DNA from: Fidelibacterota bacterium
Lineage (GTDB): Bacteria > Fidelibacterota > Marinisomatia > SCGC-AAA003-L08 > JACNLC01
Assembly: GCA_014381725.1 (NCBI GenBank)
Contig: JACNLC010000031.1
Location: forward strand, 1 to 46,496
Direction of reading: 5' to 3'
Length of the DNA stretch: 46,496 bases
The translations under genes were made by a program, and so were the position numbers. Of this stretch, positions 20,008 to 44,730 are shown piece after piece (within the stretch, counting starts at the first letter, position 1; each line of letters starts with the position of its first letter). The notes under the pieces are model-generated. The model saw nothing but the letters and a program-made list of their open reading frames with translations, was not told the DNA's origin and ran no database searches.

Positions 20008-20475
20008 ATGGTGAACAAAATATATATTATTATTGTATTATCTGTGTTAGTTCAAATTGGTTGCACTCACAGAATCAAAGTTATTGATAAATGGGATAAT
20101 GGGAATATCAAAAAAACAACTCAAAAACTACAATCCCAATATGTTATTGAAACATTCTACTATCAATCTGGTGTTAAAGAATCAGAAATATCACTTTTTA
20201 ACAATAAATTAGATGGCGCTAGTAAACATTGGGATATTGAAGGAGTTTTAATTTCAGAATCTAACTTTGAAAATGGAGAGCTGCACGGTGCAACTATTCA
20301 TTATTATCCAGAAGAAATCCCTAAACATTCAGTTGAATATTTCTACGGGCAAAAACACGGTTACGATCGTTGGTATTACTCAAATGGACAAATAAAATCT
20401 GAAGCTCAGTATAAATTTGGAGAGAGAGATTCTGAGATAATCCGCTGGGATGAAAATGGTTATCTAATTTATTAA
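20008..20475 (+). CDS. Small lipoprotein with MORN-like (MORN_2/YwqK-type) repeats
   Basis: A 155-residue putative lipoprotein. A hydrophobic leader IYIIIVLSVLVQIGC ends in a plausible lipobox with Cys at residue 19. The rest is built of short repeats of the MORN_2 type: YYQSGVKESEISLFNNKLDG, YFYGQKHGYDRWYYSNGQIK and so on, each with an NGxxxSE-type turn followed by an aromatic strand. Such repeats form an open beta-sheet and occur in surface or periplasmic proteins of unknown role, including YwqK-family proteins. It stands alone with no operon partner. The lipobox lacks the usual Leu at -3, so lipidation is uncertain. Confidence 0.62.
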   Translation: MVNKIYIIIVLSVLVQIGCTHRIKVIDKWDNGNIKKTTQKLQSQYVIETFYYQSGVKESEISLFNNKLDGASKHWDIEGVLISESNFENGELHGATIHYYPEEIPKHSVEYFYGQKHGYDRWYYSNGQIKSEAQYKFGERDSEIIRWDENGYLIY

Positions 20476-20744: not shown

Positions 20745-22217
20745 ATGAAGAAATTTATGTATGTTTTTGTTCTTCTTTCGTTTGTATTCGCACAATCTTT
20801 CCAATTTAATAGCTTATATTTAACAGAAGAAATTCGTAGTTCTGTAAAATCTCTATTGAATTATGAGGATATTGCTGTTAATATTGAGGATGATCAAAGT
20901 AGGATTGAATTTTATCAAGCAGTTTCTGAGGTTTTGCATTTTGAGATAATAGAGTTCAATTCAAAATCAGAAGAAAAATACAAAAATTATCAAGAAATTG
21001 TTACAAAATATTCAAATCAGCTAAATATTAAACAGTTAGACCTACATCTAATTCAAACTCCTGATTTCAAATATGAGTATAAACCTATTGAGATTAATAT
21101 GAAGAATGTCCAAAAACAACTTCATAAGAAACAAGCAAAAATTCTACGAAAGCAATTTCTACAATTGTACAAGAATTATAAATCTAATAAGGAGATATTC
21201 GTTCAAAGAATTAACGAACTAAAAGAACAGATAAAAGAGCAAGAGAAAATTGCTAAACAACAAATCGATAAGAAAACAGAAAAAGCAAAAGAGAAACAAG
21301 ACAAAATTGTCGAAGTAGAAATCCCAAAAGCTAAACTTAGTTTTGGCAAACTAAATACCGATACACAAACTTTAGAAATATTATACTTTAGCGAAACTAA
21401 TATTCACGGTTTTCAATTTGATTATACCGGTATTAAGATTAAAGATTGTATAAATGAAATGTTCACTAACAATTTATCTTCAAGTAAAATTCTTGGATTT
21501 TCCATGAGCGGTGGAGCGTTGCCTTCAGGGAATGGAAGATTAGTTGAAATACACTACGAAACAGATAAAGAAACTAATTTTTGCATTTCAAACCTAAAAC
21601 TTGCTGGATCTAAAGGGACAGAAATTTTGGCTGAATATGATGGTTGTATTGAAATTCCAGGCACATTACCCGTAGAAGCACTCGAGCAGAAAACTGAAAT
21701 TACAAAAGAAGAAATCAGAGAACCTGTAGTAGAAGAAACTAAACCTGTATTAATTGAGAAAGTTGAAATAGAGGAACACCAAGTAATAGAAGAATCTGCT
21801 AAAATTGAACCAGTTATTGAACAAATTAAAGAAGAAGTTGTTCAACCATATACCGGAGATAAATCTGCACTAACAAAACAATCCTCAGAAGAATTTACTA
21901 AACCAGTTGTAGTTGAGAAAATAAAAGAAACTGTTGAAAAAACTCCAATTGTTACTAAAAAGGAACAAGCTAAATCTAACGATTTTTCACATATAGCTCG
22001 ATTTGGTTCTGCTTTTAAAATGGCGAAAAATGAAGGTTTCACAAAGTTTAAGTACAAAGGACGATATTATTCCACATTAACTCGCACCGATTTCCGTAGA
22101 GCATTTAGAAGAGCCAGGGGAGAAGGGCGTAAATCATTTTATTTTTCTGGAAGAAGATATTCAACTAAGTTAGCAGGTGAATCTGAGAAAGAGTGGAAAG
22201 AAAAATTAGGGTTCTAA
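20745..22217 (+). CDS. Secreted modular protein: shared N-terminal domain, cohesin-like domain, tandem C-terminal repeats
   Basis: A 490-residue exported protein; SD AAAGGA, signal peptide MKKFMYVFVLLSFVFAQ. Residues about 20-165 match the N-terminal domain of the protein at 40576 (QF-S-YLT, SV--LL-YED-A, FYQAVSE, YKPI, H-KQAK), followed by a Lys/Glu coiled coil (150-190). Residues about 196-306 resemble a cohesin-like secreted domain (LEILYFSETNIHGFQFDYTG, KILGFSMSGGALPSGNGRLV). A Glu/Pro/Val-rich low-complexity linker follows. The end carries two copies of a motif of about 26 residues, with a 30-residue period: FGSAFKMAKNEG...KGRYYST (420-445) and FRRAFRRARGEG...SGRRYST (450-475). The function is unknown. 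A bidirectional terminator follows. Confidence 0.6.
   Translation: MKKFMYVFVLLSFVFAQSFQFNSLYLTEEIRSSVKSLLNYEDIAVNIEDDQSRIEFYQAVSEVLHFEIIEFNSKSEEKYKNYQEIVTKYSNQLNIKQLDLHLIQTPDFKYEYKPIEINMKNVQKQLHKKQAKILRKQFLQLYKNYKSNKEIFVQRINELKEQIKEQEKIAKQQIDKKTEKAKEKQDKIVEVEIPKAKLSFGKLNTDTQTLEILYFSETNIHGFQFDYTGIKIKDCINEMFTNNLSSSKILGFSMSGGALPSGNGRLVEIHYETDKETNFCISNLKLAGSKGTEILAEYDGCIEIPGTLPVEALEQKTEITKEEIREPVVEETKPVLIEKVEIEEHQVIEESAKIEPVIEQIKEEVVQPYTGDKSALTKQSSEEFTKPVVVEKIKETVEKTPIVTKKEQAKSNDFSHIARFGSAFKMAKNEGFTKFKYKGRYYSTLTRTDFRRAFRRARGEGRKSFYFSGRRYSTKLAGESEKEWKEKLGF
22002..22169 (+). repeat. Two 90-base coding repeats (FxxAFxxA-EG-GRxYST motif)
   Basis: Codons for residues 420-445 and 450-475 encode the same motif twice: Phe, Ala-Phe at +3/+4, Ala at +7, Glu-Gly, an aromatic strand, Gly-Arg, Tyr-Ser-Thr. 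The repeats are diverged at DNA level. This GR/K-x-Y-x-T repeat resembles short motifs in some phage virion and surface proteins. Confidence 0.6.
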
Positions 22218-40575: not shown

Positions 40576-42495
40576 ATGAAAAAAATAACTGAATATTTAT
40601 TATTTGTACTTGTGATATCATCTGTGGTGTTTTCTGAGAAAACTCATCAATTTTCAAGTAAGTATCTAACAGATTCTATGATTGAATCTGTGAATGATTT
40701 ACTTAAGTATGAAGATGTTGCAAAGAAGATAAAGAAAAAAGGGGATAGGTACAAATTCTATCAGGCAGTCTCAGAAGAAATTGCATTTAAGATTGCCGAT
40801 CTGAAAGCTACATATCATAAGAAATTTCAAAAGTATGAAAAACAATTGACAAAATTATCTGAAAAACTTGAGGTAACTCAGGAAGCATTTAATTTTCCAG
40901 ACGCTCCACAAACAACTTATAAATATAAACCAATTAAAATTACTAAAGAGACTGTAAAAAAGAAAATTCATCCCAAACAGGCGAAAAAACTGAAAACTAT
41001 TTATTTATCTCTAAAAGCATATTATAAGGAAAAAGCGAGTATTTACAAAAGTAAGTTAAAATCTCTTCAAGCTGATCAGAAAAATCAACTAGATAAAACA
41101 TTTGCAGATATTCCTGTTGTTAAGGGAATTACTTCTAAAACGAATGTATATCCAAAGACAATTACTATTCACATTATGGAATTTGATAATTTAGAAGAGA
41201 ATTTTCGTTTTAATTGGTTATCAAAAACATTACCAAATTTGATAAAAGAAAAATACGCCAGTCGTTCTAATGTTAACATCCAATATGCTGGAACTATCGA
41301 ACCGTATTTTGTTGATAGTACTCCGGCTTTTGATTCAGCAAACAATATACTTGTTAATGGTAGTTTTTTCAGCAAAAAAGATTCTTTGAAGATTATTGTA
41401 GAAGTTTTTGATTTATCTACTTGGGAAACTATTGGGAGAAGTGTTATTGTTGCTGATTATGAAGATATAGCAAGTATTTATGACCAATTTATTCATACAG
41501 TTGGAGTAATTCTCAAACCGCATCTTCCTAAATTTATTATGACTTACAAAGAAATTCTAAATAACGAAGTTGAGGATAGAAAGAATAATAAGGAAGTAAC
41601 TAAATCGGCTAAAAAACAAGATAAAAAAGATAAGTCGTCATCGATGATTACGGAAAAAGAATTAATCCCAATAATTATCCAAACTTCTTCAACTAGAGAA
41701 ACAGTCCAGACATCATTGAGTGTATTTGAGCAAGCGCATAACAGAATCAACAATGCGTTAGATGAATTAGAAATTTATGCTGACGAATACTATAAATTAC
41801 GCCAGGAAGATACTGACCGTGGTCAGTTTGGAACTCGATATTTTAGAGAATTTGATTTAGATGAAGAAAGAAAATATCCTGTTTCTATTGAACAAGACAC
41901 TAAACAGTTTATCAAACTATTAGATGGAATATTAGAGAATCCATACGATGTGTTGATTGGCGAAATGGAAGTCATAATTGACAGAAGAGCTCCACAAATG
42001 GTTACTGTACAACTTCCTATTGACTATTCGTTGAAAAATAATTTGATTCAGGAAATGTTCATTAATCTACCTCACGAGAAAGTTGTGAATAAAAATGGTA
42101 ACATTCTTATAAAATTCCCAAAAGAATACTATCAATTTACTCGAGAATTTATGAAAAAATTATCTTTAATGGAATTCCAGATTACACCTGTTATTTTGTT
42201 AACCGATAAAGTAGGCAAACTTCAATTAGCAATTTTAGATTCTTGGGAAAAAAAGTACAACCAGCTTGAGTCGTCAGTAGTAGATTTTGTTAAAGTAAAT
42301 AAATTCTATCCTCTACTTGCAGTTTTGCAAGGCGAGGATGATATTCAAATTAGCATTGATAAATCTGCTTCAACTAGCGTATATAGATTTTCTGCTCCCA
42401 TTGATAAATTAGGAGATTATTCAAAAGTTATCGTAAAATTTATCCCAAATGATGAACTTGAATCATTTTTATCTGTTACATTAAGTAACAAATAA
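40576..42495 (+). CDS. Secreted protein sharing the N-terminal domain of the gene at 20745, with a TolB/CsgG-like middle
   Basis: A 639-residue exported protein with signal peptide MKKITEYLLFVLVISSVVFS. Residues about 25-168 match the domain in the 20745 gene: QFSSKYLT, SVNDLLKYEDVA, RYKFYQAVSE, YKYKPIKIT, HPKQAKKL. The start is ATG 40576; TTG 40567 lies 9 bases upstream. Residues about 193-320 recall TolB/CsgG/FlgO-type domains (ITIHIMEFDNLEENFRFNWL, LPNLIKEK, NGSFFSKKDSLKIIVEVFDL, then a strand after STWETIGRS). Residues about 345-360 are Lys-rich and low complexity. Residues 375-639 form an unrecognised region with a coiled-coil start and the YFREFDLDEERKYP and IIDRRAPQMVTVQLPIDY blocks. 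The function is unknown. Confidence 0.55.
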   Translation: MKKITEYLLFVLVISSVVFSEKTHQFSSKYLTDSMIESVNDLLKYEDVAKKIKKKGDRYKFYQAVSEEIAFKIADLKATYHKKFQKYEKQLTKLSEKLEVTQEAFNFPDAPQTTYKYKPIKITKETVKKKIHPKQAKKLKTIYLSLKAYYKEKASIYKSKLKSLQADQKNQLDKTFADIPVVKGITSKTNVYPKTITIHIMEFDNLEENFRFNWLSKTLPNLIKEKYASRSNVNIQYAGTIEPYFVDSTPAFDSANNILVNGSFFSKKDSLKIIVEVFDLSTWETIGRSVIVADYEDIASIYDQFIHTVGVILKPHLPKFIMTYKEILNNEVEDRKNNKEVTKSAKKQDKKDKSSSMITEKELIPIIIQTSSTRETVQTSLSVFEQAHNRINNALDELEIYADEYYKLRQEDTDRGQFGTRYFREFDLDEERKYPVSIEQDTKQFIKLLDGILENPYDVLIGEMEVIIDRRAPQMVTVQLPIDYSLKNNLIQEMFINLPHEKVVNKNGNILIKFPKEYYQFTREFMKKLSLMEFQITPVILLTDKVGKLQLAILDSWEKKYNQLESSVVDFVKVNKFYPLLAVLQGEDDIQISIDKSASTSVYRFSAPIDKLGDYSKVIVKFIPNDELESFLSVTLSNK

Positions 42496-42554: not shown

Positions 42555-43109
42555 ATGAAAAAAGCACTTATTATTCTATATTTAGTTGCAATAGTATTTG
42601 GTGATGCAGGAATTGAATCTGATAAATCAGTACGGAAATCATTCCCAAATCTCAGAATAAAAAACCTGAAAAACAGACAAATTACAACGGAAGCTATTTT
42701 AGATAGTCAGCTCACATTAGTTAATTTTTGGGCTACCTTTTGCGTTCCCTGTAGAAAAGAGATGAAACATCTAAATCATCTCCATAATGCGTATATGGAT
42801 AGCAGTTTTCAAGTAGTTGGAATATCAATTGATGATTCTCGAACAGCTCGGCGAGTCTCATCTGTTGTAAAATCACAAAAACTGGATTATCCGATTTATC
42901 TTGATACAGAACAAAAACTTTATAAGCAGTTCAATTCTTCTGCGATGCCATTCTCTGTTTTGGTTTCTCCTAATGGTTATATTTTGTGGGAGCATACTGG
43001 TTACATTCCTGGAGATGAAGAAGAGATGGAAGAAATTATTTTGAAAGAATTGGGAATAGCAATAAAAACAGATTCACTTCAAATTGACACAATTCAAAAT
43101 GAGAAATAA
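42555..43109 (+). CDS. TlpA-like thiol-disulfide oxidoreductase, exported
   Basis: A 184-residue thioredoxin-fold protein of the TlpA/ResA type. The N-terminal signal peptide is MKKALIILYLVAIVFGD. The redox site is CVPC (Cys63/Cys66) in NFWATFCVPCRKEM. The cis-Pro segment is SSAMPFSVLVSPNG, and the extra insert VVGISIDDSRTARRV is typical of the family. It reduces or isomerises disulfides in the periplasm. The beta-barrel gene starts inside its 3' end, so the two are cotranscribed. The N-terminal part before residue 33 lacks a lipobox. Confidence 0.85.
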   Translation: MKKALIILYLVAIVFGDAGIESDKSVRKSFPNLRIKNLKNRQITTEAILDSQLTLVNFWATFCVPCRKEMKHLNHLHNAYMDSSFQVVGISIDDSRTARRVSSVVKSQKLDYPIYLDTEQKLYKQFNSSAMPFSVLVSPNGYILWEHTGYIPGDEEEMEEIILKELGIAIKTDSLQIDTIQNEK

Positions 43110-44730
43110 ATTACTTCTCACAATATTGTCAGTTTCACTGTTTGCACAAGGGTCCAATTGGAATGCTGGATTATACTCAAAATATGGAGATGGTGAGCAG
43201 GATGGAAATCCTTACGATTATCTTGAAAATTATCTTATACTAAATGCTAATGAAGGGAATTGGTTATTTAGTCTTGAGTTAGATTACAACTTTCCACCTG
43301 AATATGGAACAGAACATAGTGGAATAAGAACATACAATCTTCAGTATTTGGGAGAGCAATTATCCTTTGAATTAGGACAAGTCAGTTCAGTTATTGGCAA
43401 TGGATTATCACTTAATTTATTCGATGATAAAACTATAGATTTTGATAATAGACCTGTTGGGATGAAAATCCAATATGACATTAACGAAAATTGGCAAACA
43501 ACAACATTGTTTGGTTTTAAACAAAACTACCACTTTTATTCTCCGAGTGCAAATATAAGAACTCCTGATGGCAATAATGCTTATACCCTCGGAGGTGCCC
43601 AAATTCATTACTTTCCCGATGATGGTAGTTGGGGATTTACTCCATATATAATTGGAAGCCGATTCAAATCAGATATTATTTGGAAAGAATTAGCATTTGA
43701 AAATTTAGAAACTCAATCTGATACACTTTCACAATATTCATCAGTAATAAATCCTGGATTTGTGTTTTCAGTTTATGAAAATAGATGGGATGGAGTTTTA
43801 GAGATTTCTGCGAATCAGAAAAGATTTGATAAACCGTTCATCCGACAGAATAATGACGATGAAAATCTAACTATATCAGAAAGTTTGACTCAACAAAATG
43901 GTAACGCAATTTATTCACAAGTTAATTGGTATCCAGAATGGTTTACTCTTACTGCAGAATACAAAAGATATGCTTGGAATGTTGCGAGTGATGACAATAA
44001 AAAGAATTTGTATCGACAAGCTTTCTATCCATTGCCATACCAAATGGGACCTACAGGAATTCGCCAGCATGACATCGGTTTATTAGGGAATATTACTCAT
44101 CCAGTTGATTACAGTGATGAAGTTGGTGTATTTGTTGAGTTGAAAAAAGACTTTGATTATGCTCTAGCAACCTTTTCTTATGTCAGTGCGAGCAGAATCC
44201 AAAATGGGGATATTGTTTCTGAACAGTTATGGTTTCCTTCTCAGAATCTTGGATATTATCCTTTTATCGAATACTATGCTGAATTGGAAACTTCAGGTGA
44301 AACAATTAATAATCGGTCTGTGATAGCGTTTACAAAACTATCTACCGATGGAAATCTTTGGGAGCAACATATCACATTTACTCCTTTTTATGCGTCTTGG
44401 TCTATAAAAGATAATTTTGTGTTGAACTTAGTTTCTACAATTCAACTATCACATAGAGGAGAAGAGCAATACAAATCACAACAATATATTTCTTCTGTAG
44501 ATTTTGGAAGTAAATTATCACTCGCCGGGATTTTAGATATAAGCGATGATCTTGAGCTTGTTGGAGACGGACAATGGTTGAGTGGAGAAATTACATTTAA
44601 ACCGAAATCATCGATGTGGATTAGGGCATCTTATGGGAAGGAGAAAGGTGGAGTTCGGTGTACTAGTGGAGTATGCAGAATTATTAGTCCATTTGAGGGA
44701 TTCCGCTTGGCAATGGAGATTAGATTATGA
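43099..44730 (+). CDS. Outer-membrane beta-barrel protein linked to the redox genes
   Basis: A 543-residue exported protein; ATG 43099 starts the signal peptide MRNKLLLTILSVSLFAQG directly. TTG 43084, inside the tlpA-like gene, is less likely. The body has regular amphipathic strands with aromatic ends: NYLILNANEGNWLFSLELDY, LSFELGQVSSVIGNGLSLNL, VGMKIQYDINENWQTTTLFG, through to a last strand GFRLAMEIRL. An overall similarity to DUF6029-like Bacteroidota barrels is suspected but not certain. It overlaps the TlpA-like gene by 11 bases and the Omp28-like gene by 4, so the three probably form one transcript and one function. Confidence 0.65.
   Translation: MRNKLLLTILSVSLFAQGSNWNAGLYSKYGDGEQDGNPYDYLENYLILNANEGNWLFSLELDYNFPPEYGTEHSGIRTYNLQYLGEQLSFELGQVSSVIGNGLSLNLFDDKTIDFDNRPVGMKIQYDINENWQTTTLFGFKQNYHFYSPSANIRTPDGNNAYTLGGAQIHYFPDDGSWGFTPYIIGSRFKSDIIWKELAFENLETQSDTLSQYSSVINPGFVFSVYENRWDGVLEISANQKRFDKPFIRQNNDDENLTISESLTQQNGNAIYSQVNWYPEWFTLTAEYKRYAWNVASDDNKKNLYRQAFYPLPYQMGPTGIRQHDIGLLGNITHPVDYSDEVGVFVELKKDFDYALATFSYVSASRIQNGDIVSEQLWFPSQNLGYYPFIEYYAELETSGETINNRSVIAFTKLSTDGNLWEQHITFTPFYASWSIKDNFVLNLVSTIQLSHRGEEQYKSQQYISSVDFGSKLSLAGILDISDDLELVGDGQWLSGEITFKPKSSMWIRASYGKEKGGVRCTSGVCRIISPFEGFRLAMEIRL

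Follow-up and report, generated by a model that had tools for sequence, protein, structure and literature searches.

The window, by which we mean the whole stretch of 46,496 nucleotides that was analysed, corresponds to contig C79 in a genome of 2.18 Mb and 98% completeness (the window genome, G000) and contains two genes for exported proteins, gene A and gene B, which share an N-terminal domain (N-domain) and are otherwise built from different parts (Table 1). Just upstream of gene A lies a gene for a small lipoprotein with MORN-variant repeats (20008–20475). For comparison, we used a phylum sample of 245 genomes of Candidatus Neomarinimicrobiota; all genomes used are draft genomes, the named relatives being metagenome-assembled or otherwise uncultured, and the signal peptides were identified by eye from the sequence, not by a program.

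Table 1. Features of gene A, gene B, and the conserved neighbours of gene B, in positions of the window
Feature	Position	Strand	Basis or remark
Gene A, exported 490-aa protein (N-domain, cohesin-like domain, basic C-terminal repeats)	20745..22217	+	ORF and translation
Gene A, signal peptide, residues 1–16 (...SFVFAQ)	20745..20792	+	Read from sequence
Gene A, N-domain, residues 17–165	20793..21239	+	BLASTP against gene B, profiles, AlphaFold2
Gene A, middle beta-type domain, residues 197–305, cohesin-like by appearance	21333..21659	+	Genome profile matches, PDB
Gene A, two basic C-terminal repeats (FKYKGRYYST / FYFSGRRYST)	21966..22214	+	
Gene B, exported 639-aa protein (N-domain, TolB/PelC/LpoB-like domain, beta-rich C-terminal domain)	40576..42495	+	
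Gene B, signal peptide, residues 1–20	40576..40635	+	Read from sequence
Gene B, N-domain, residues 22–168	40639..41079	+	BLASTP, three-way alignment, structure model
Gene B, TolB-N/PelC/LpoB-type alpha/beta domain, residues 196–316	41161..41523	+	Foldseek
Gene B, conserved beta-rich C-terminal domain, residues 438–637	41887..42486	+	Part of the same old protein
TlpA-like thioredoxin, conserved neighbour downstream of gene B	42555..43109	+	
DUF6029 outer-membrane-type protein, second conserved neighbour of gene B	43084..44730	+	

The first-pass annotation had claimed that the proteins at 20745 and 40576 share an almost gap-free N-terminal domain of about 145 residues, and this was confirmed by BLASTP (102 bits; E value, 2e-27; the N-terminal ~145 residues almost ungapped) and by Smith–Waterman alignment (score, 265; mean of 1000 shuffles, 47; z, 25.9). 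A third copy was found in the window genome on contig C13, where it forms residues 1–195 of an M23 peptidase 923 aa in length. All three pairs within this genome score 24–26 SD above shuffles, and the three sequences align with 29 invariant columns; an extended linker and the YED.A and H.KQAK motifs are conserved across unrelated carriers. A composition artefact (the domain is Lys/Glu-rich) was ruled out as the cause of the similarity by the shuffles and by a clean search of the phylum, in which the N-domain profile, as a specificity control, gave no match at E ≤ 0.001 in the 233 other genomes. With a deeper profile, marginal matches (E value, 0.0015–0.0076) appeared in G004, G045, and G073 and were judged to be due to chance; two of them lie in unrelated proteins, one a regulator of the sigma-54 type and the other cytosolic in appearance, and the third is a 74-aa frame with an internal stop.

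An AlphaFold2 model of the N-domain based on 15 family members (pLDDT, 93.5; pTM, 0.83) predicts an all-helical hairpin, in which short helices (positions 12–28) precede two long helices (34–76 and 110–162) joined by the conserved extended linker PxFxYxYKPI. The same elements are present in the model of full-length gene B, and the comparison of predicted structures that had been suggested at the outset thus indicates a common fold. Within the N-domain itself, there is neither a lipobox nor a transmembrane helix, nor any known anchor motif. It had been said to belong to no named family, and indeed no consistent match was obtained against Pfam, NCBIfam, and PHROGs, where no described family was matched above its curated cut-off by several members and the best Pfam matches (E value, 0.003–0.03) each occurred in one of the 15 members. 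The N-domain profile matched no PDB sequence below an E value of 0.09, and the model had no Foldseek match below 0.88 in the PDB and viral models; given the low sensitivity of Foldseek for helical hairpins, we do not claim a new fold. No match was found on plasmids, nor outside the phylum in a pattern-based contig scan with the three-row N-domain alignment, and a limited literature search retrieved no paper on the module. As a helical fold in the periplasm that includes a conserved extended segment, the N-domain could also be a ligand sensor, comparable to the helical sensor domains of the periplasm, and regulate the enzyme to which it is attached; a distant Foldseek match to a D-lysine-binding sensor domain (TM, 0.33–0.34; E value, 5–8) points in the same direction; however, this match is not significant, and the carriers are not receptors and possess no transmembrane signalling part, so that a sensory role appears decidedly improbable.

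N-domain carriers were found in 12 of the 245 genomes, all within the order of the window, namely the window genome, one genome of f2, and ten of f3; the profile search detected none in f4, nor in f1 outside the window genome (four further genomes). The many further proteins anticipated by the first-pass annotation are thereby reduced to a small family confined to one order, with C-termini that are as varied as expected. Five architectures occur, in which the N-domain is combined with an M23 peptidase, a TolB-like protein, a cohesin-like protein, or a barrel-operon protein, or is repeated in a tandem-copy lipoprotein; its position is N-terminal in all carriers, directly after the signal peptide. 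The window genome has three N-domains on three different carriers, and every other carrier genome encodes one N-domain protein, the carriers differing between genera: the gene B-type fusion in three g17 genomes, proteins of 350–410 aa in g6, g11, g19, and g20, and, in the f2 genome, a lipoprotein of 1001 aa in which three to four N-domains stand in tandem (G005, L054:10728–13733). The gene for this lipoprotein occupies the barrel-operon locus, with a 5'-nucleotidase-like gene before it as in relatives. Its tandem copies, together with the long antiparallel helices and their charged surface, would be in keeping with a passive spacer, in which the hairpin serves as a rigid stalk or filler setting the distance from the membrane or wall to the catalytic body and has no specific partner. 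A spacer would nevertheless not need the linker and the YED.A and H.KQAK motifs to be conserved to this extent across unrelated carriers, and in most carriers there is no lipid or membrane anchor that could serve as the starting point of a distance; we regard a spacer as unlikely, though still to be kept seriously in view.

The C-terminal part of gene A had been described as cohesin-like followed by tandem repeats. The tandem basic repeats stand and are found in the window genome alone within the order, whereas the relationship of the middle domain to cohesin is only suggestive, with a weak PDB match to a scaffoldin cohesin (E value, 0.11) and no match in Pfam, including cohesin PF00963. A genome search with the middle domain gave matches in many relatives (E value, 1e-13 to 1e-7). 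This tandem domain is widespread within the order; most relatives (L006, L007, L010, L022, and others) have giant proteins of up to ~3000 aa that carry it in tandem. A Dockerin_1 domain is located at the end of an exported nuclease/LTD protein (L050:6024–7622), and a cohesin–dockerin-like surface system, of which Pfam does not recognise the cohesin-like side, is possible in the phylum. The fusion of the N-domain with the cohesin-like domain occurs in one assembly only.

The body of gene B, previously called TolB/CsgG-like, is predicted to have the TolB-N/PelC/LpoB fold on the basis of a Foldseek search with its model (HpaA homologue, TolB, and PelC; E value, 3e-4 to 1e-3; for the match to TolB, PelC, or LpoB, 4e-4 to 3e-3; probability, 1.00), and its similarity to solved structures is not detectable by sequence. 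Identification of gene B as TolB of the Tol-Pal system was rejected, since it has no C-terminal β-propeller, the C-terminal half being mixed β/α by the order of its elements, and since the Foldseek alignment covers only ~130 residues of TolB. The gene B body is present in 120 of the 245 genomes, normally without the N-domain, and in all 19 N-domain-less homologues read it directly follows the signal peptide; this number excludes frames of >600 aa in g13 and three other genomes, to which the N-domain profile gives no match. The TlpA and DUF6029 genes lie downstream of the fused gene B types, and the TlpA gene is also found downstream of several lone (N-domain-less) orthologues.

The third carrier of the window genome, encoded on C13, scores 54 bits against PF01551 (cut-off, 28.7) and is thereby a member of family M23; its zinc-binding motifs HxxxD (...FHAGLD...) and HxH (...PHLHFE...) are intact and are followed by Ig-like sequence. 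Orthologues of this peptidase are present in 39 of the 41 order genomes, with the body directly after the signal peptide in 17 of the 18 that have a readable start, and the fusion with the N-domain was found in one assembly only. In the orthologue of G030 (L114:562–3648), an unrelated N-terminal extension with Cys-rich repeats stands at the place of the N-domain. Downstream of the fused M23 gene lies a 176-bp remnant (L004:3515–3691; G000 C13:23514–23690) that matches the gene's 3' end at 94% identity and, with its repeated flanks, is a recent local tandem duplication next to it. The body of the ~390-aa carriers is a domain encoded in a barrel-TPR-queG cluster, upstream of the gene for a conserved barrel-like protein of 270 aa, and this barrel-operon protein body is present in 117 of the 245 genomes. 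Forms devoid of the N-domain occur in the window genome (C88:22469–22993), g12, and f4, and the body comes right after the signal peptide in all 13 with a readable start, including that of the window genome; the lone proteins of the window genome and g12 match, at E values of 1e-18 to 1e-22, a profile built solely from fused forms. The same domain is also located inside conserved frames of 2800–3070 aa across the class (e.g., G111:C135 and G104:C19).

As judged from these sequence comparisons, the N-domain was gained repeatedly at one spot, the junction between signal peptide and body, in three old, unrelated, and vertically inherited exported proteins, because nearly all relatives read run from the signal peptide straight into the conserved part; in the window genome, it was also placed ahead of the cohesin-like domain. 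Orthology of the fused and lone carriers is supported by synteny (TlpA/DUF6029 and the barrel-TPR-queG cluster). Conversely, the N-domain could have been an ancestral part of the old proteins that was lost many times, and the fused TolB-like genes of the window genome and g17 are compatible with one clade (AU, p = 0.45). However, three different ancestral proteins would then all have needed the N-domain, which is absent from >100 orthologue-bearing genomes outside the order, in other families and classes of the phylum; gain is therefore far more economical, and repeated loss appears very improbable. The N-domain tree is weakly supported, which renders the number of gains uncertain, and the tree of the barrel and M23 proteins does not resolve the f3 genera.

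Three carriers have orthologues that lack the N-domain and are evidently still exported, so that it is not needed for the export of its carriers. This result bears on the anchoring or sorting function that had been proposed for the module. A sorting or maturation signal, directing the protein to a particular compartment and maybe cleaved off, would suit the invariable position directly after the signal peptide, yet it is improbable given the export of those orthologues, the 145 well-folded residues that far exceed known targeting signals, and the existence of tandem internal copies. Anchoring is only plausible, the domain being devoid of a known anchor motif; the N-domain may tether or recruit.

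From the conservation of the linker and the end motifs on unrelated bodies, we infer that the contact-making part is the module itself, which would bind either another copy of itself or a partner common to the carriers, and this suggests a shared docking or assembly part for the N-domain carriers. The interpretation we tentatively favour, and to which we would give nearly an even chance, is a periplasmic docking or oligomerisation module added to several unrelated exported proteins within one order. The module would have been inserted between the signal peptide and the body during the evolution of the order, the recipients being an M23 cell-wall peptidase, a TolB/LpoB-like periplasmic protein, a barrel-operon protein, and a cohesin-like protein; in the periplasm, it would guide every carrier to the same envelope partner or, alternatively, make the carrier self-assemble. 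Of the four bodies, two belong to the peptidoglycan or Tol/Lpo type, and the carriers are not all clearly concerned with peptidoglycan. As no Foldseek relative was found in the PDB, the module has no structural link to a docking domain. We further put forward, as a speculation that we consider rather unlikely, that a new fold-level family might act as a mobile periplasmic "address", by which one envelope machine would recruit any carrier of the module, and lineages would change the connections of this machine as the module passed from one old protein to another, always at a fixed site after the signal peptide. Lineage-specific domains are common; here, one is seen added to three vertically inherited envelope proteins at the same spot, and the N-domain-less orthologues available for each of the three constitute a natural experiment on module function. 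Almost no envelope biology is known in the SAR406/Marinimicrobia group, where the module points to a putative envelope partner.

Among known systems, the Pfam DUF families and general coiled-coil modules likewise include small helical domains of unknown function, none of which matches the N-domain consistently. The third carrier has PF01551 and the motifs in common with peptidase family M23 and is distinguished by the extra N-domain, found in none of the 18 orthologues whose start was read. Similarly, the gene B body shares its fold with the TolB N-terminal domain, PelC, and LpoB, whereas its ~430 aa define a family specific to the phylum, in which the C-terminal half is conserved and particular to the family. 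EnvC and PcsB, which are recruited by FtsEX, resemble the M23 carrier in the order of a signal peptide, a long helical hairpin, and a cell-wall-enzyme-type domain; in EnvC, the coiled-coil domain (residues 35–222) docks on FtsX ahead of the LytM domain, which acts by activating the amidase AmiB (PMC11139282). The N-domain was rejected as an FtsX-docking coiled coil of the EnvC/PcsB type on the grounds of no sequence or Foldseek match, Foldseek being weak on helical hairpins. In contrast to EnvC, the peptidase motifs of the M23 carrier are intact, and the N-domain is also found on non-peptidase bodies. The proposed docking module would act in a manner like that of the helical coiled-coil part recruiting EnvC and PcsB to FtsX, without kinship to it.
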